This document shows positions 43,051 through 59,010 of a stretch of DNA of 64,000 nucleotides, in pieces. How positions within the stretch are numbered: position 1 is the stretch's first letter; the number at the start of each line of letters is the position of its first letter. The notes under the pieces were generated by a model. The model did not search any database. It was not told the DNA's origin and saw only the letters and a program-made list of their open reading frames with translations. Source of the DNA: Candidatus Methanomethylophilaceae archaeon (GTDB lineage Archaea; Thermoplasmatota; Thermoplasmata; Methanomassiliicoccales; Methanomethylophilaceae); assembly GCA_017540825.1 (NCBI GenBank), contig JAFYAH010000016.1, positions 1 through 64,000 of the forward strand, given 5' to 3'. The translations under genes and the position numbers were made by a program.

Positions 43051-43858
43051 CCGGCTCCGAGCCAGAAGGATGCCGCCCTCGGATACGTCCGAGCAGCCTT
43101 GCGACGACCTCTGGAGTGCCGTCCACGTGCTCCAGGGCAGGAACCTCTTCGGGAAGGACCCATCTGAAGGCCACGTTCTCCTCGTTGAGGACCGGCTCCA
43201 CATCCCTGACCTTGAACAGGAACGGATAGACCTTCCACAGTATGCTCCCTTCCCTGGTGTATACGGGGGGAAGACGGCCGTCCGGCTCTCCGACAGAGAC
43301 CCTCGTCTCCTCCATGATCTCCCTGCGGGCGGTATCTGCGGGATCCTCCCCCTCCTCCACCCTTCCGGCGACCAGCGACCACCTTCCGGGGAAGGAATGG
43401 CACCTCTCTGGGCGCTTCAGCATCAGTATCCTCTCGCCGTCGAACAGCACCGAGGAAACGGATTCGCGCATCGTGACGCCCTCTACCTCTACTGTGCCGG
43501 CCTCCGCGTCCACGACGGCCGTGTCGCCGTTCCTGAATATCCCTATCGAGGGTATCGAGTCTATCATCGGTATGGACGAGATCACCGCCCCGGTGGCGAC
43601 TATGGTCTCCGCGGACTCGTTCACGACCGCGGCTGGCTGCTTCCCATGGACCGCGAGGTCGTACATGACGAACGATCCGACGGTGCTGCCCTTCCCTCTG
43701 GGGAACACGAGGACCTTCCCTGCGACGTTGCCGCCGTCCCCGACGCGCACCTCCCCCGTGGCCCCGTCGACGCCTCCGAGGAAGCTCAGCGGCTCCGGGA
43801 TCACCAGGACCTCGCCCCGGGCCTTCCCGGGAGATATCATGCGTCCTTCGAACCTCAC
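43045..43858 (-). CDS. Phosphomevalonate dehydratase small subunit (DUF126/AcnX swivel) fused to a NUDIX domain
   Basis: GTG 43858 overlaps the large-subunit stop. Residues about 7-130 are the aconitase-X small-subunit swivel domain (MISPGKARGEVLVIPEPLSF...GSFVMYDLAVHGKQPAAVVN). The same frame continues without a break into a NUDIX hydrolase (about 135-265) with box GRVEEGEDPADTARREIMEE (G-x5-E-x7-REUxEE). The small subunit completes the enzyme that forms anhydromevalonate phosphate in the archaeal mevalonate pathway. No stop is seen near the NUDIX end (about 43045); the frame runs to 41879. The NUDIX substrate is unknown, perhaps an isoprenoid diphosphate. Confidence 0.8.
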
Positions 43859-45030
43859 ATGACCACCCCCATAAGGGCGGAGATGTCGCGGCACATGGCC
43901 TTCTGCGAGCACAGCGTCGGTAGGTAGTTTCCGGCCTTGGCGGAGTTGGTCCCCGTCCTCGAGAACGTACCCTCTATGGGGGCCACTACCATGCACGTGT
44001 CGGCCAGGACAGGCCCGAACTCCTCCATCACCCTGACGTCCTCGGGACATCTGTCCCTGACCTCCGCGGAGGTGCAGAACCATATCTCCACGTCCTTCCT
44101 GACCTTCCTCTTGCCTTTGAGGAACGACGCTATCTGGTGCATCTCCTTCTCGGTCAGATGGGGGCACCCTATCGCTATGAGCTCCACGTCGTCGGCCACG
44201 TTCAGCTTGTCGTAGGCCGCCTCGAGCTCCTTCTCGCCGATATGTATCGTCTCCAGGCCGGAGACGTCGAACCTGCCCGCCTCCGGGGTGGTCCCCTCGG
44301 CATGGTACAGCGCGACGGACCCGGAAGCGGCCATCGCGGCGGACAGGGCCTTCGCCTCCTCGACCTGCGGCCTTATCCCTCTGAAGTACGGGACGCCCGT
44401 GCCTATCGACATGCCGACCGCCTGTCCCAGGAGCGAATAGGAGAACACCGAGCCGTCGATGTCCGCGTCTATGACGACCGTAGGCCTCCTGTTGATGTCA
44501 AGGTGGAGGCCGTAGTTAGCAGTCTTGCCCAGGATGGCGGCGGCCAGGGCCCCGGGTCCGCCCTCGCGGTTGGTGCGGGCGCCGATGAACGAGTTCACGA
44601 ACGACAGAGCGGACGACTCCGCCCAGGCCACATGGTCCCCCAGCTTCGGGACGTTGGCCCCGGTGTAAGGCGTGCAGGAGCAGGTGGTCCTGATGCCCAT
44701 GCTCCCGTACAGGTCGATGATCCTGAGCTGCTTCTCGGCGAAGGCCTCGGGGATGTGCATCTCCCTCCATCTGGTGCGGTCCATCCCAACGGGGTTCAGG
44801 GTGGACGGGACCGAGACCTTGGCCCCGCCCGCGACCATGTCCTCGAGGTACTTCATGCCGCCGTCGCCGATGGTCTTGTAGGAGGCGCCGGAGAGGTGCG
44901 CGGAGGTTATGTCCACCAGGCTCTCGGCGCCGTATATCTTGCCGAGGGCGGTGACCAGCTCCATGGCCTTCTGCCTTCCCTCGCCTTCTTCGCCGTTGAG
45001 GATGGCCTCCTCGGCTCTTGTCAAATCCAT
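43855..45030 (-). CDS. Phosphomevalonate dehydratase large subunit (aconitase X)
   Basis: A 391-residue aconitase-X catalytic subunit of the modified archaeal mevalonate pathway. Start MDLTRAEEAILNGEEGEGRQ at ATG 45030. Iron-sulfur and active-site regions include IRTTCSCTPYTGANVPKLGD, AWAESSALSFVNSFIGARTN, REGGPGALAAAILGKTANYG, LIAIGCPHLTEKE, EIWFCTSAEV and TSAKAGNYLPTLCSQKAMCR in the last part. Its TGA overlaps the small-subunit start, indicating tight coupling. Confidence 0.93.
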   Translation of the reverse strand: MDLTRAEEAILNGEEGEGRQKAMELVTALGKIYGAESLVDITSAHLSGASYKTIGDGGMKYLEDMVAGGAKVSVPSTLNPVGMDRTRWREMHIPEAFAEKQLRIIDLYGSMGIRTTCSCTPYTGANVPKLGDHVAWAESSALSFVNSFIGARTNREGGPGALAAAILGKTANYGLHLDINRRPTVVIDADIDGSVFSYSLLGQAVGMSIGTGVPYFRGIRPQVEEAKALSAAMAASGSVALYHAEGTTPEAGRFDVSGLETIHIGEKELEAAYDKLNVADDVELIAIGCPHLTEKEMHQIASFLKGKRKVRKDVEIWFCTSAEVRDRCPEDVRVMEEFGPVLADTCMVVAPIEGTFSRTGTNSAKAGNYLPTLCSQKAMCRDISALMGVVM

Positions 45031-45159
45031 GAGGGTGCACCGCAAGGGATTCTAATAACCGTGTCGGAGCAGCCCGCGACGGTCGCTGCGGCGTCCGGCG
45101 ATCCCTACGTCCGTCTCTGGTCCCCTCCTGTCGTCCCCGGACCCCTGGCGCGGTCGGTC

Positions 45160-46903
45160 CTCGCAGGCTCCATACGTCGGAGTCGGTCTGGAGCTTCACC
45201 ATCCTCTCGAACAGCCCTCCGGATTCCCTCAGCACCGACGGCGGGCCTTCCTCGCCCACCTTCCCTCCCGACAGGACGACGATCTTGTCAGCCTCCTCCA
45301 CGGTCCTCATCCTGTGGGCGATTATCAGCACCGTCTTGTCGACTACGAGCCTGGACAGGGCCTTCTGGACCCTACTCTCCGATTCGGTGTCGAGCGAGGC
45401 CGTGGCTTCGTCCATGATGATGATCGGGGCGTCCTTCAGTATCGCCCTCGCTATGGATATCCTCTGCCTCTCGCCTCCGGAGAGCTTGCTCCCGTTCTCG
45501 CCTATCACCGTGCCGTATCCTTCGGGAAGAGCGGACACGAACTCGTCGCACATCGCAGCTTCGGCCGCCGCGAGCACCTCCTCGTCGGATGCTCCCCTCC
45601 TTCCTATGCGGATGTTCTCCATCACCGTGGTGTTGAACAGCACCACGTCCTGGAATACTATGGAGTACTTGCCCATCAGCGTCTCGGGATCGACCGTGGA
45701 TATGTCTATGCCCCCCAGGGTTATCTGCCCCTTGTCGACATCCCAGAACCTTGTGGCCAGCCTGGCGACGGTGGACTTCCCCTCTCCGGACGGGCCCACC
45801 AGCGCTGTGACCTCCCCCTGCCTCGCCACGAAGGAGACGTCCTCCAGGACCGTCTGGCCGCCGTTGTACGAGAACCCCACGTTCTTGAACTCGATATCGT
45901 AGTTCCGAGGCTCGAAGGACTCCGACCCGGTCTGGATCTCCATGCCGTTGATCTCCTGGATGCGCTCGCAGTGGTCCTCCGCCAGAAGCATGGCGGCAAG
46001 GTTCTGCAAGGCGATGTGGATCGGGTTGTAGATGCTCCCGACCATGATGAGGGCCGCGACGTAAGCTATCAGCGGTATGGAACCTTCGGAGAGCAGCACG
46101 GCGCCTGCTATGGCCGTGGTCGCGATCCCGAGCTTCAAGACCAGCTGCCCGCCGACCACGAATATGGTCATCGTCAGCTCCGACCTGATCTCCGCGCCCT
46201 CGACGGCGTCGAGATTCCTCCCCAGCTTCTCCATATAGGAGCCCTGCGCATCGTTGGCCTTGAGGTCCGCTGAGCATTCCAGAGACTCCTGTATCATCTC
46301 GGTGACGGCCTCCATCTTCTCGATCTTCTTCCTGTTCTCCTTCTTCTGCATCCCGGCCGAGAGGAACACCATGAGGAGCGCCACCGGGATCGGCCAGACT
46401 ATCGCCAGCCCTAATATGGGGGACCATGCGACTATCATCACGCCGACGGCGGTCGTGAATATCAGCGAGGCTATGAGGGCGGGGATCCAATGGGACAGCG
46501 CGGTCTCCTGCATCGTCACGTCGCCCATCATGCGCACCGTGAGGTCGGTGGGGTCCTTCTTGGCGAAGAACGACAGCGGGACCTTCCTCATCTTCTCCGC
46601 CATGCCCGTGCGGACGTTCCTGCTCTCCTGGTAGACGTCGAAGAAGCAGCGGTTGTACTGGTACAGATAGGCGGCGCCGGTCGCCAGCATCAGCACCAGG
46701 CCTATCGCCGCATAGACCCATAGTTCGAGGCCGAAATCGTACTGGTTGTCCCCTATCAGGCCGGCCACGAACATTATGGCGACCATCATCGGGACCATCA
46801 GGACGAAATCCGTGAGGAGCGTCGCCGCGATGGCCTCCTTGAGGTTGCTCCATTGCTACTCCGAGAGCCCCCAGCGTTCTTTGAGAGACCCTGGAACGCT
46901 CAT
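45160..46903 (-). CDS. ABC transporter, fused membrane/ATPase subunit 2, with in-frame amber codon
   Basis: ATG 46903 overlaps the stop of the partner ABC gene (ATGA). The N-terminus reads MSVPGSLKERWGLSE, TAG (46856-46858), then QWSNLKEAIAATLLTDFVLM. In relatives this segment is continuous (ALSE-x-G..DL.KA). A six-helix exporter-fold domain follows, then an ATPase with Walker A GPSGEGKST, signature LSGGERQRISIARAILKDAP and Walker B IIIMDEATASLD. The protein should end near 45160 (MVKLQTDSDVWSL) but the frame stays open to 44516. Without read-through the first start would be ATG 46798, losing helix 1. It probably pairs with the upstream subunit as an importer (YbtPQ-like) for a metal chelate. 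Confidence 0.85.
46856..46858 (-). other. In-frame TAG, codon 16 of ABC subunit 2
   Basis: Sits in the N-terminal elbow motif WGLSE-x-QWSNLKEA, which in relatives is continuous with a polar residue at this place. The gene's only coupled start (ATGA overlap) lies upstream of it, so the amber must be read for normal expression. Confidence 0.8.
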
Positions 46904-50639: not shown

Positions 50640-53600
50640 TCAGGAAGTGGCTCCCACCTCTCCGTCGATGGAGAAATACCAGACGCCCTTGAACTCGACC
50701 CATGGGAGGTACTCGGAATAGTACCCGTCCAGGGTCCCGAGGCAGTCCAGGTCGCTGTAGATCTCCGGGAACATGGTCTCAGCCATGAACTGGTAGACGA
50801 ACCAGCAGTCGAACATGCCGATCATGCTCATCTTGTCGATGAAGTAGACGTTGCCGCTGCTGATCGCAGGCACCGAATCGCTCCAGCCTATCCTCTTGCC
50901 GAGCTTGGCCGCTATGGAGTCGATGTCGGACTTGGTGACGCTGGCCCCCCATCCGATGAACTTGCCGCACTCCGGGGCGTACGACCTGAGGAGGTCGAAG
51001 AAGACGAAGTCGACATCGCTCGTCGCGAACACCTCGGGGCTCACGGTCTGCTTGTACTGGGTCAAGGACTTCTGGTTGAGGCACTCTATGGGGTTGTCCG
51101 ACTCGTTCTGGCTGTACTGCGACAGGTATGTGACGAGCTCGACATAGTACGTGTACTTCTCCGCAGGGACCTGCGAGAGCTTGCTGGACACCTTCTCGAC
51201 CTGCTTCTTGTAGAAGTCGGCGACCTTCGCGGCCGTGGACTGGTTGTCGAATATCCTTCCTACGATGTCGCAGTTCTTGCTCATGGTGTCCGGGTTGAGC
51301 TTTCCGACGAACAGGTCGAGAGTGACTATGGGGATGCCTGCCTTCGCCATCTTGTCCACGGTATCCTGGCTGACCATCCCGTACTGGATGCACCAGGTGG
51401 GGATGAAGACCGCATCGGGGTTCAGCGATGCGACCGTCTCCCAGTTGAACGTCCCTTGGAGGAAGCTGCCGACCTCGGTCATCCTTCCGAAGTCCATGCC
51501 GGCGTTTGACCACATCTCCTTCAGGTCCGGGTAGAACGAGTTGAGGTTGCTGTCGTATCCGACGACCATGTCGACGAACTGCTCGCCTGCGATGGAGGCG
51601 ATCAGGGTCATCGACTCGGCGTCGCCGCACACCACCCTCTTCAGAGGGACCTCGAGCGCCACCTCGCGCCCGGCCAGGTCGGTCACCGTCACCGTCCTGC
51701 CCACGTCTCCGCCCCCGGACGTCTGGGTCTCCCCGATGTCGCCGTCCAGGGTGAAATACCAGACGCCTTTGAGCTCGACCCAGGGCAGGAACTCCTCGTA
51801 GAAGCTTTCCAGGGATCCGACCGGGTCCAGCGACGAGAACATGTCGGGGAACATCTGCATAGCATGGAGCTGGAGGATCATCCAGTTCTCGAACGTGTTG
51901 AAATAGACCTGGTCGTAGACCATGACGTCCTTGCTCTTCACTGCGGTGACGCTGTTCCATCCGGGTCTCTTGGACAACGAGGCGCTTATGTCGGCGATGT
52001 CGGAAGCGGTGACCGTCGCACCCCACCCGATGTTCCTTCCGCATTCGGCCGCGCCGTTGTAGGCCATGAAGAAGACGTGATCCGGATCGCTCGAGACGAA
52101 GGCCTCTGCGCTTATCTGCTGCCCGGGCGTCGCGATGTTCTCCTGGCCGAGAGCCAGTGCCTCTGCGACGTTGGCTCCGCCCCTGTACGTGTCGAGCTTG
52201 ACCAGCATCTCTTCGTAGAAGGAGAACTTCCCCTCAGGGATCTGGGATCTCTTGCCGAGAACGGAATCCAGCTGCTCCGCGTAGAAGTCGGCGACCTTGG
52301 AAGCGACGCCTCTCCTGTCGAAGATCTTTCCGATGATGTCGCAGTTCTTGGACATCGTATCAGCGTCGTAGCTGTTGACGAAAAGATCGAGGTTCACTAT
52401 CGGGATGCCTGCGTCGGCCATCTTCTTGGCCGTGTCTTCGGACACCATCCCGTACTGGTACACCCACATCGGGACGAAGACCACGTCCGGGTCCAGGGAG
52501 GCGACGGCTTCCCAGCTGAACGTCGTGTTCTGGAAGCTTCCGACAGAGGCGATCTTGGAGAAGTCTATCCCGGCATTCTCCCACATCCTGGCCAGGTCGG
52601 GGTAGTACGTCTGGAGGTTGCTGTCGTATCCGACGAGGCAGTCCTTGAAGCCCTCCCCGGCGATGGCCGCTATCAAGGACATCACCTCGGCGTCGCCGCA
52701 GACCACCCTCTCTACAGGGGTGCTTATCTTGACTTCCCGCCCTGCGAGATCGGTTATGGTGACCGTGGTCTCCTTGTCCCTGCTCTCCGACACCGGGGTC
52801 GCCCCGACCTCGCCGTTGAGGCCGAAGTACCATACGCCTCTGAAGTCGACCCAGGGGAGGTACGTCTTGTAGAAATCGCCCAGCGCCTCGATGTATCCCA
52901 GGTCGCCGAAGATCTCTGGGAACATCTTCTCTGCATAGAACTGCTGTATCCACCAGCCGTCTATGGTCCCGCTCATGGACATCTTGTTTATGAAATAGAC
53001 CTCGTTGTTGTCGATGGCTGGGATGCTGCCGGCCCATCCGACCCTCTTGTCGAGAGCCGCAGCGAGCGTGCGGAGCTCCGGCTCCGTGGGGGCCTTGGCT
53101 CCCCATCCGATGTACTTCCCGACGTCCGGGTAGTATGCTCTGAGAAGATCCAGGAATATGAAGTCCACATCGCTGGAAGCGAACGCCTCTGCGCCCACGG
53201 TCTCGCCGTACTTGGTGAGGGACTTCTGGTTGAGCGCCTCCTGCGGCTTGCCGTCGTCCGTAGAATAGTTCAGGCAATACTGGCCGAGACTGGTTATCGT
53301 CTCTATGTAGTACGTGTACTTGTCCGCAGGGACCTGCGACATCTTGCTGGAGACCTTCTCCACCTGGTTCCTGTAGAATTTGGCCACATCGCCCGCCGTG
53401 CGCTCGTTCTTGAATATCTTTCCGAGCACCTCGCAGTTCTTGGCCATCTCGTCCGCGTTGAGCTTGGCCGAGAACAGGTCCAGGGTGACGATTGGGATTC
53501 CGGCCTTGGCCATGTTGTCGATGCTCTCCTGGGTGACCATCCCGTATGTGATGCACCAGTACGGGACGAACACGGCGTCGGGCTTCAGCAAAGCGACCGT

Positions 53601-53975
53601 CTCCCAGTTGAACGAGGAGTCCAGGAAGGATCCCACCGGCTTGATCTTAGAGAAGTCCATGCCGGCATCAGTCCACATATCCATGAAATCTGGATACATC
53701 TCGCGAAGATTGCTGTCATACCCTACCAGGATGTTCCCAAAGTTCTTTCCAGCTATCGACCCTATCAGGGTCATCAGGCCTGCGTCGCCGCAGACGACCC
53801 TCTCCAGGGGGACCTTGAGCTGGACCTCGTTGCCAGCCATGTCCGTCACCTTCAAGGTCTCCTTCTCGACAGGGGCCTTGTCGTCGCTGCTGCCGCCCAT
53901 GACGACGAAGGCTGCCACAGCAGCGAGGGCGACCACTGCGATGATGGCTATCAAAGCGATAATCTTTTTATCCAT
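50640..53975 (-). CDS. Giant substrate-binding protein with three tandem FepB/BtuF-type domains
   Basis: An 1111-residue extracytoplasmic protein anchored by an N-terminal helix (IIALIAIIAVVALAAVAAFV); there is no lipobox cysteine. Three consecutive copies of a class III binding domain of about 350 residues follow. They begin at KVTDMAGNEVQLKVPLERVV, TITDLAGREVKISTPVERVV and TVTDLAGREVALEVPLKRVV, each with CGDA, LVGYDSN or VVGYDSN, and an end block LPWV...GVWYF. Domains 1 and 3 are closest to each other; domain 2 has diverged (no CLNYS-like block). It feeds the FecD/FecE pair. Triple-domain fusion is rare, since this family normally has one domain per protein. A TATA-like box on the minus strand is at about 54020-54028. 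Confidence 0.93.
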   Translation of the reverse strand: MDKKIIALIAIIAVVALAAVAAFVVMGGSSDDKAPVEKETLKVTDMAGNEVQLKVPLERVVCGDAGLMTLIGSIAGKNFGNILVGYDSNLREMYPDFMDMWTDAGMDFSKIKPVGSFLDSSFNWETVALLKPDAVFVPYWCITYGMVTQESIDNMAKAGIPIVTLDLFSAKLNADEMAKNCEVLGKIFKNERTAGDVAKFYRNQVEKVSSKMSQVPADKYTYYIETITSLGQYCLNYSTDDGKPQEALNQKSLTKYGETVGAEAFASSDVDFIFLDLLRAYYPDVGKYIGWGAKAPTEPELRTLAAALDKRVGWAGSIPAIDNNEVYFINKMSMSGTIDGWWIQQFYAEKMFPEIFGDLGYIEALGDFYKTYLPWVDFRGVWYFGLNGEVGATPVSESRDKETTVTITDLAGREVKISTPVERVVCGDAEVMSLIAAIAGEGFKDCLVGYDSNLQTYYPDLARMWENAGIDFSKIASVGSFQNTTFSWEAVASLDPDVVFVPMWVYQYGMVSEDTAKKMADAGIPIVNLDLFVNSYDADTMSKNCDIIGKIFDRRGVASKVADFYAEQLDSVLGKRSQIPEGKFSFYEEMLVKLDTYRGGANVAEALALGQENIATPGQQISAEAFVSSDPDHVFFMAYNGAAECGRNIGWGATVTASDIADISASLSKRPGWNSVTAVKSKDVMVYDQVYFNTFENWMILQLHAMQMFPDMFSSLDPVGSLESFYEEFLPWVELKGVWYFTLDGDIGETQTSGGGDVGRTVTVTDLAGREVALEVPLKRVVCGDAESMTLIASIAGEQFVDMVVGYDSNLNSFYPDLKEMWSNAGMDFGRMTEVGSFLQGTFNWETVASLNPDAVFIPTWCIQYGMVSQDTVDKMAKAGIPIVTLDLFVGKLNPDTMSKNCDIVGRIFDNQSTAAKVADFYKKQVEKVSSKLSQVPAEKYTYYVELVTYLSQYSQNESDNPIECLNQKSLTQYKQTVSPEVFATSDVDFVFFDLLRSYAPECGKFIGWGASVTKSDIDSIAAKLGKRIGWSDSVPAISSGNVYFIDKMSMIGMFDCWFVYQFMAETMFPEIYSDLDCLGTLDGYYSEYLPWVEFKGVWYFSIDGEVGATS

Positions 53976-54049: not shown

Positions 54050-55078
54050 ATGGGGCCTTCCTCACTGCCTCAAGGTCGGCGAGGCGGCATGGACGCTCTG
54101 CTCTACAACAATTTCGAGATCACACCGTTCGAATCGGGCCTCAGATACTCCATCATCGGCCCTGACGGATCGACCGATGTGATGAACTATCCTTTCGAGG
54201 GGTTCGTCGTGAACCATATGGTCACGGACATGCCGAGGTTCTCCAACAGGAACCAAATCGGCCACATGAACTACATCATGATAGACTGCACGGTGCGCGG
54301 TAGGATGACCATAGAGTACAGCGGAAAGCATCTGTCCCTGTCGCCCGGCAGCGTCGTCATCTATTACCCGGTGAGCGTGCAGTCGTTCATGACCGTCCAC
54401 ACGGAAGGATACGAGTCGATCACCATCGGAATAGACCTGGACAGATACGGCATCCTGCCCGAAGACGCCGATATGGAGCCTGTCGGCGCTGTCGGGCGGT
54501 TCGTTGAGCAGCACAAGGACAGGCCGCTGTGGCCTTTGAGGCTGCCAGACAGGCCCATGGCCGACGTCATAGCCATCTAGAGGGCCTTGGTTCGTCCTGA
54601 GAGAAGGGCGCTGATCCATGCTCTCGTGGACGAGATCCTGGAAGACCTTTCCGAGCCGCTGGACGCTCGCTCCGAGGGGATGGTCCTGACAGATTACGCG
54701 AAAAGGGAGGACCGGCTGTACGACAGGCTGGCGTCTTGCTACGACCGCCCATGCAACATGAGGGAGGCATGCCTGGACCTCGGCATGGACAGATGCAACA
54801 TATGCTCGTCCTTCTCGAAGGTGTACGGGGATACGCCCTACGCATTCCATAAGCGCCAGAGGATGCTCTGTGCCTCCGGCGAGCTGATGGTCGGCGACGA
54901 GCCCATCGGGGCGATCGCGAACGGCATCGGCTTCCAGAAGGAGAGCAAATTCGCCGAGGAGTTCCAGAAGATGTTCGGATGCACCCCCAGCCGGTTCAGG
55001 AAGAGGTGCCGCAGTATGCTCGACGGATCGTCCCGCATCGACAGCCGAAGCGGCCGTCCTGCCGGCTCCCGAGGTTAA
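54050..55078 (+). CDS. AraC-family regulator with in-frame amber codon
   Basis: A 342-codon gene divergent from the uptake operon. The N-terminal part (NFEITPFESGLRYSIIGPDG, then LSPGSVVIYYPVSVQSFMTV) is an AraC-type ligand-binding region. Codon 177 is TAG (54578-54580), between PMADVIAI and RALVRPERRALIHALVDEIL. The C-terminal part has the double helix-turn-helix: CNMREACLDLGMDRCNICSS and EPIGAIANGIGFQKESKFAE...FGCTPSRFRKR. Without read-through the protein would lose its DNA-binding domain. AraC regulators are uncommon in archaea; transfer from bacteria is likely. ATG 54089 is an alternative start. It stops at TAA. Confidence 0.85.
54578..54580 (+). other. In-frame TAG, codon 177 of the AraC regulator
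   Basis: Lies between the ligand-binding and DNA-binding halves. Both halves are in the same frame with no other stop, and the second half has no ATG start nearby and no ribosome-binding site. Confidence 0.75.
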
Positions 55079-57381: not shown

Positions 57382-59010
57382 TCAGAACTTGAACCCGAAC
57401 AGCTTTATCCCCTTCTTCTCCTGGGGCTGGTCGCTGCTCCCGGAGGACGATCCCCCCTTGTAAGCGACCTTCGTCTTCGAAGGGAAGACCTCCGCGCCCA
57501 GGGTGGAGTCCTTGCCGAGCGTGATGGAGTCCAGGGCCGTGCATCTGGTGAAGGCGCGGTCGCCGATCGCCACCGCCGAGGACGGCATGGAGACCGACGA
57601 GAGGGACGTGCATCCGGCGAACGCGCCGGTGCCGATGGCGTTCAGGGACGAGGGGATCGATATCGAGTGCAGGGCGGTGCATCCCGAGAACGACTTGTCC
57701 CCCAGCTTTGACAGCGAGGACGACAGGCCGACGGAGGAGAGCTTCGTGCAGTCGCGGAAGGCCCCCTCCCCCACGGATGTGACCGAGGATGGCATGGACA
57801 CCGAGCACAGGGAGTCGCACCCCTGGAACGCGAAGTCCCCGATGGTCGCGAGGTTGGGCGACATGGTCACCGAGGAGAGGGCGTTGCATTCGCGGAAGGC
57901 CCCCTCGCCCAATGAGGTCACCGAGGGGGGCATGGACACCGACGACAGCGCGGTGCATCCCTGGAACGCGCGCTCCCCTATGGTGGTCAGCGACTGGGGG
58001 AGGCTCACGGAGGCGAGCGCGGTGCACCCGGAGAAGGCGCTCCTCTCTATGGATATCAAAGAAGGCGGCAGAGTCACGGAGGCCAGGGACTTGCAGTCCG
58101 AGAACATCCCCCTCTCCAAGACGGCCAAGGAAGTCGGCAGGGTGATCGCAGCCAAGGACCTGCAGCCGGAGAACGCCCCGTAGTCTATGGTCTTCACCGA
58201 GGGCGGGATCATCGCCTTCGAGAGCGACTTGCACCCCGAGAACGCGTCCTTCCCTATCGACGTCACCGAAGGGGGGATCTCTATGGACTCCAGCGAGGTG
58301 CAGCCCTGGAACGCGCGGTCGCCGATGGACTTCACCGACGGCGGTATGTTTATGCTGACCAGCCTCTTGCATTCCCGGAACATGTCCCTGTCGATCTTGG
58401 AAGTCCTGGGCGGGATTGTGAACGTCTTGAAGCCCTTTATGATCATGCGCAGGGGCCTGGTGCACTTCCCCCCGGAAGAGGCCTTCTCGAACCATTTCAA
58501 GGCCTCGGAGTCGGACTGCAGGCGGGTGCTGTTTGAATAGATGTACGAGAGCTTGTACTGGGACTAGACGTCCCCCTTCTTGGCCAGGTTCAGGACGACG
58601 TCGAAGATCATGAAGTCCATCTGCTCCTTCTTGAAGGGGGTGCCGGAGAGGATGCAGCTGTTCTCCAGCGAGCGGACCGCGCTCTCCGGAGGGTCGGCTA
58701 TCGGGAAGTCGCTCTTCATCAGCTCGCTGACGCCGTCTATGCGCCATATGTCCGCGTCGGCGGCGTTTATGGAGATGAGGTTCTTGGTCATCTCGAGCGC
58801 CTTGTCGAACTCGCCCTTCTGGCAGTAGGCGGCGGCCAACGGCTTCAGGCTGGCCCTCTGCTCCTTGACGGACATCTCGATGTTGATATGGTTTACATCC
58901 TTCGTGACGAGGACCTTGGAGCCACAGTACATGCAGAAGCCGAACTCGCGGGAGTCGTCCAGGTCTATGTCGCCGGCGCAGTTGGGACATTTGAGCGAGA
59001 CTAAAGCCAT
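57382..59010 (-). CDS. Zinc-ribbon, Sel1-repeat and leucine-rich-repeat (BspA-like) protein with in-frame amber codon
   Basis: ATG 59010 begins MALVSLKCPNCAGDIDLDDS, a zinc ribbon (CPNC...CMYC). A helical region follows, ending NLAKKGDV. Codon 149 is TAG (58564-58566), then SQYKLSYIYSNSTRLQSDSE and ALKWFEKASSGG. These two sides together form one Sel1 repeat (A..GD-x-xQY.L...Y......D..EA.KWF.KA...G). About 14 BspA-type leucine-rich repeats (SIxIPPSVxSIGDxAFxGCxSL) fill residues about 190-520. It stops at TGA. BspA-like repeats mediate adhesion or protein contact; no signal peptide is seen, so it is probably cytoplasmic. Without read-through, the LRR part would have only a TTG start. Confidence 0.85.
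58564..58566 (-). other. In-frame TAG, codon 149, inside a Sel1 repeat
   Basis: The TAG interrupts the consensus GD-x-xSQYKL of a Sel1 repeat at a position usually held by a polar residue. This places the codon within a folded domain and strongly supports a sense reading. Confidence 0.85.

Follow-up and report, generated by a model that had tools for sequence, protein, structure and literature searches.

At the locus studied here, within a window of 64,000 nucleotides (the whole stretch of DNA that was analysed), a gene for a three-domain substrate-binding protein (SBP) is followed on the minus strand by genes for a FecCD-family permease, an importer ATPase and two half-ABC transporters, and an AraC-type regulator is encoded divergently (Table 1). 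The frame of half-transporter 2 exceeds the length of the copy in the SIG7 metagenome-assembled genome (MAG) by about 200 codons (44516-45045). This overrun overlaps the downstream gene at 43855-45045, which matches the NCBIfam model for cis-3-hydroxy-L-proline dehydratase below its cut-off, and suggests a lost stop codon or an indel.

Table 1. Features of the cassette and of the three-domain protein, with positions in the window
Feature	Position	Strand	Evidence or remark
Half-ABC transporter 2	44516..46903	-	Starts at 46903 and crosses in-frame TAG 46856-46858
In-frame TAG, codon 16 of half-transporter 2	46856..46858	-	Lys in SIG7 and G083
Half-ABC transporter 1, 595 aa	46900..48687	-	Best half-size PDB matches YbtPQ 6p6i and IrtA
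Importer ATPase, 256 aa	48750..49520	-	PF00005; NCBIfam matches of the haem, FecE or BtuD type, all below cut-off
FecCD-family permease, 354 aa	49517..50581	-	PF01032, 271.5 bits; PDB matches FhuB/HmuU/BtuC
Three-domain substrate-binding protein	50640..53975	-	ORF, 1111 aa, ATG to TGA; PF01497
D3, residues 760-1111	50643..51698	-	Sister of D1; domain tree
D2, residues 403-759	51699..52769	-	Deepest branch of the three; domain tree
D1, residues 39-402	52770..53861	-	Self-comparison
N-terminal membrane anchor, residues 1-31	53883..53975	-	Hydropathy; without lipobox Cys
Divergent AraC-type regulator	54050..55078	+	HTH_18, C-terminal
In-frame TAG, codon 177 of AraC-type regulator	54578..54580	+	Arg in three intact relatives

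Three related domains behind one membrane anchor

The 1111-aa protein matches PF01497 (Peripla_BP_2, class III) in three stretches, at 124.5 bits against a cut-off of 27.5, and D1, D2 and D3 each exceed that cut-off in the genome scan. Borders between the domains were set as cuts where the repeated domain start recurs. Self-alignment of the protein gives three repeats, with identities of 217/352 (61.6%) for D1-D3, 187/349 (53.6%) for D2-D3 and 159/357 (44.5%) for D1-D2; the local alignment scores between domains (1181, 986 and 811) lie far above the shuffled maximum of 74 (100 shuffles per pair). Residues 1-31 are the only strongly hydrophobic stretch and form one N-terminal transmembrane segment. 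Since there is no Cys, and thus no lipobox Cys, within residues 1-45, the anchor is probably an uncleaved membrane helix rather than a lipid. The initial annotation had described three complete, related domains joined to a single anchor, with D1 and D3 the most alike, and in each of these points the protein agrees with it.

A search for other triple-domain homologues found a relative at 96% identity, with the same domains in the same order, in the separately assembled SIG7 MAG (locus L005). Against this copy, dN/dS is 0.022/0.183 in D1, 0.013/0.270 in D2 and 0.022/0.215 in D3. The low ratio in every domain indicates that all three are maintained by selection; purifying selection acts on D1, D2 and D3 each.

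It is extremely improbable that the three-domain gene is an assembly artefact or a gene in decay. Every assembly with the triple form is a draft, the gene in genome G089 is split across two contigs with an overlap of exactly 141 bases, and G091 retains just a fragment of the SBP gene, beside the AraC gene, all of which could be read in that direction. However, a single open frame runs over 50640-53975, identical nucleotide runs shared by two domains reach 23 nt at most, and both the SIG7 protein and the low dN/dS across the three domains speak against such a reading, which is refuted in substance. Assembly error, named in the initial annotation as the refutation to look for, is thereby ruled out as far as sequence allows.

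Domain number among related loci

We queried 29 fetched loci with the window proteins; these loci were chosen by earlier search matches, so that the counts are not estimates of frequency. The SBP, FecCD permease, ATPase and half-transporter pair co-occur in 9 of the 29. Among these full cassettes, L005 (SIG7) has a three-domain SBP and L079 (G084) a two-domain one, and single-domain SBPs are found in the remaining seven (L110, L112, L113, L114, L116, L117 and L095). The order of the cassette, including the AraC gene, is kept in SIG7 and G084. Because the same cassette occurs with one-, two- and three-domain proteins, domain number here has risen stepwise. In G089, D1 and D2 are followed by FecCD, and D3 is absent. 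This locus (L006) was considered as a cut-off triple protein, but FecCD stands directly after D2, which makes it a two-domain form (D1 and D2). Loss of D3, or a gap in the G089 assembly, is the simplest account of it.

The history of the duplications was examined in a 32-domain tree. D1, D2 and D3 each cluster with their own SIG7 counterpart, and D1 and D3 are sisters with support of 100/99. Forcing the domains of the window, SIG7 and G089 into one clade apart from G084 was rejected (AU p = 0.0038), which places the first duplication before the split from G084. The best tree lacks a pairing of D2 with domain 1 of G084, but the AU test did not reject it (p = 0.189). Most simply, one domain became two and a third copy then yielded D1 and D3. 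Stepwise duplication had been proposed in the initial annotation from the greater likeness of D1 and D3, and the rejection of a history in which all duplications follow the G084 split bears it out.

The same annotation held that proteins of this class are almost always single-domain, and this fails in the Methanomethylophilaceae. Tandem forms were surveyed in 16 genomes, namely the window's own and 15 of the 102 in the family, chosen for the most part because their matches were numerous or long. In at least 8 of the 16, some open frame contains two or more PF01497 matches, with at least 17 such frames in the set. A profile was also made from the domains themselves; of the 79 ORFs that it matches in the fetched loci, 20 have 2 to 4 domains (one of these is truncated at a contig end). 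Neither the frequency of tandem domains in this family nor the variation in domain number at this locus had been noted before in the annotation. The triplets of L028, L037, L100 and L101 each form their own clade in the domain tree, which points to independent, repeated duplication of binding domains in the family. These other tandem Peripla_BP_2 proteins resemble the one described here in having 2 to 4 domains per chain, several of them beside FecCD genes, but differ from it in their separate duplications and other domain subfamilies.

Beyond the family, the present domain subfamily was found (E up to 1e-20) in 4 of 389 genomes of the phylum, all of them Methanomethylophilaceae. A PF01497 scan of 389 genomes, a weak control because of its strict threshold, gave only three frames with two matches among the matches listed (G021:C5, G143:C13 and G090:C92), all from the window's order. 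The literature searched showed no description of class III SBPs with several domains from this order, and PMC13293324 makes no mention of tandem, multi-domain, duplicated or fused forms.

Two further kinds of protein were observed among these loci. L082 (G042:C275) encodes 1421 aa with four domains, of which domains 2 and 3 are nearly identical and would represent a very recent duplication. L036, L096, L097 and L084 are ORFs of 660-1628 aa with a single C-terminal binding domain and an N-terminal part of other sequence.

The notable part of these results is the stepwise series of domain number rather than the triple form itself. A syntenic series of one, two and three domains on one cassette amounts to a natural experiment on the benefit of extra binding domains. 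It is also a warning for annotation, as counts of binding proteins in these genomes conceal several domains per gene.

Fold, binding-site residues and proposed function

The AlphaFold model of D3 has a mean pLDDT of 67.5 and a pTM of 0.73. Its nearest folds are FepB from Veillonella (4mo9; Z 22.6 over 314 residues, with pLDDT below 50 in long stretches of the C-lobe) and YiuA (9if3; Z 20.9), and BtuF ranks far lower. Of the FepB/BtuF type assigned in the initial annotation, the FepB part thus stands, as a FepB/YiuA-like fold, and the BtuF part does not. Both AlphaFold models were built on 8-row alignments and have poor C-lobes, with long stretches of pLDDT below 50, too low for a comparison of pockets. 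Likeness to YiuA and FepB (4mo9) spans some 300 residues, with Z of 19-23 and identity near 20%, and includes one conserved Glu per lobe; those proteins, however, are single-domain, whereas here three domains share an archaeal transmembrane anchor.

The binding site of YiuA is described, in the available part of PMC5683015, as a basic triad of R64, R165 and R223. None of the three domains has this triad: the aligned residues are Gly/Ser/Ile (D1), Glu/Val/Leu (D2) and Glu/Val/Val (D3), so that an electrostatic siderophore site in the manner of YiuA is lacking. The position of YiuA H331 is Lys in D1 and D3 and Gln in D2, and is the one of five YiuA-site positions at which the charge of D2 differs from that of both other domains. 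Each domain retains one Glu per lobe (E125, E489 and E846; E263, E624 and E981), aligned to the Glu of YiuA. In BtuF, such lobe Glu residues dock on the permease.

Building on the domain anatomy, conservation, selection, synteny and stepwise duplication demonstrated above, we hold it reasonably probable that this SBP, of cluster A-2 (class III) and anchored in the membrane, arose by two duplications of its binding domain and provides metal-chelate donors to one FecCD/ATPase importer. The neighbouring genes bear on the ligand. The PDB likeness of the half-transporters was judged from half-transporter 1, which matches YbtPQ (6p6i) at 1e-92, IrtA at 1e-83 and Sav1866 at 3e-65; full-length P-glycoproteins outscore YbtPQ by way of two stretches. 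YbtPQ and IrtAB, its closest half-transporters in the PDB, are siderophore importers with an exporter fold, and with such a pair and an AraC-type regulator the cassette resembles a chelate-iron uptake unit. YbtA, too, is an AraC-type regulator. Here, however, the half-transporters adjoin a FecCD importer that is complete and has an SBP of its own, and their role in import is putative. Against a chelate ligand stand the replacement of the YiuA triad in all three domains, the resemblance of the half-transporters to general exporters as well, and the FecCD expansion in this order, which the available part of PMC10804542 presents as B12 uptake.

That expansion leads to a second explanation, in which the cassette imports corrinoids (B12 or its precursors) for methanogen methyltransferases and the three domains take different corrinoids. 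In the same part of PMC10804542, many FecCD permeases of the order are interpreted as B12 transporters and diverse BtuC clades are given as a mark of the order. The best NCBIfam model for the present permease is likewise BtuC (194.9 bits, below the cut-off of 334), and invariant aromatic residues are present in the domain alignment. We nevertheless regard corrinoid import as unlikely, since the SBP fold is nearest to FepB and YiuA and not BtuF, and neither a cobalamin riboswitch nor any other Rfam family was matched in the window, which leaves no riboswitch clue to the ligand. B12 systems are also not known to include a half-transporter pair like YbtPQ/IrtA, or an AraC regulator.

In the chelate reading, the three domains would be strung like beads behind one membrane helix, joined by short linkers, beside a single FecCD/ATPase importer. 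Each bead would most likely close alone on a metal chelate, such as a ferric siderophore, and the beads would dock by turns on the same permease through the conserved Glu pair, with the effect of more loaded donors per permease. D2 is the likeliest of the three to differ and may be drifting somewhat in ligand or affinity. The initial annotation had likewise suggested that tandem domains could raise ligand capture, or accept different chelates through one permease.

Loading and docking by turns is modelled on GlnPQ, whose two tandem binding domains are independent, have different specificities and vie for a single translocator, according to the available part of PMC8025302. Both systems join multiple binding domains by short flexible linkers and have one translocator. 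In GlnPQ, however, a type I importer of amino acids, the permease itself carries the two SBDs, whereas here three class III domains lie on a separate anchored protein, which has one N-terminal helix only, and the permease is encoded by its own gene.

Alternatively, the outer domains could form a surface array for capture, or a relay, and pass ligand inward, with only one domain docking. Repeated NEAT domains work in this manner for haem, and both the arrangement of beads on short linkers from a single anchor and the retention of the order D1-D2-D3 between species would suit it. We think a relay quite unlikely, however, as both docking-type Glu residues are retained in all three domains and the same cassette is served by one- and two-domain forms.

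A gut-type methanogenic archaeon thus possesses a nutrient-capture protein with three domain copies where its relatives have one or two, which offers a way to study the enlargement or diversification of a nutrient trap that serves one transporter. The syntenic series would extend the tandem-SBD idea, studied in GlnPQ, to class III chelate importers of methane-making archaea of the animal gut.

In-frame TAG codons and their probable reading as pyrrolysine

Both the regulator and half-transporter 2 are interrupted by TAG (Table 1). The regulator of SIG7 has two in-frame TAG codons, those of the window and G083 have one each, and those of G089, G084 and G091 have none; all in-frame stops inside the regulator genes compared are TAG. 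The host genome encodes PylS (255.5 bits, cut-off 178). Together, the in-frame TAGs and PylS suggest that pyrrolysine is incorporated in the regulator and half-transporter 2, which we consider likely but unproven. The rival reading is that the regulator TAG marks decay of the gene. Between the window and SIG7, dN/dS of the regulator is 0.054/0.335 before the TAG and 0.081/0.198 after it, so that constraint is weaker past the TAG yet present.

A simple codon-usage gene call gave, for 53 genes, 41 TGA, 6 TAG and 6 TAA stops; of the TAG-ending frames, two or more resemble antisense noise. A 2025 paper in Science is said to describe archaea that read all TAG codons as pyrrolysine. As far as the available part of PMC3941956 goes, amber is seldom a stop in this order and pyrrolysine occurs almost solely in methylamine methyltransferases. 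Standard gene calling splits genes with an in-frame TAG in two, a further caution for annotation.

A bolder and rather improbable proposal combines these observations with the domain series: copy number of the binding domain (one, two or three) might be a fast-evolving uptake dial, in a cassette tied to pyrrolysine by its TAG codons. If this were true, full-length regulator and pump would be made only with pyrrolysine available, which would link chelate uptake to methylamine metabolism.

In-frame TAG codons were also seen elsewhere. At 57382-59010 on the minus strand, a 148-aa zinc-ribbon-like ORF ends in TAG (58564-58566) in frame with a 372-aa leucine-rich repeat-like ORF (both named by sequence inspection), and read-through would give 542 aa. 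Two further Peripla_BP_2 genes, at G000:C21:19702-20472 and G086:C38:6680-7294, contain one in-frame TAG apiece.
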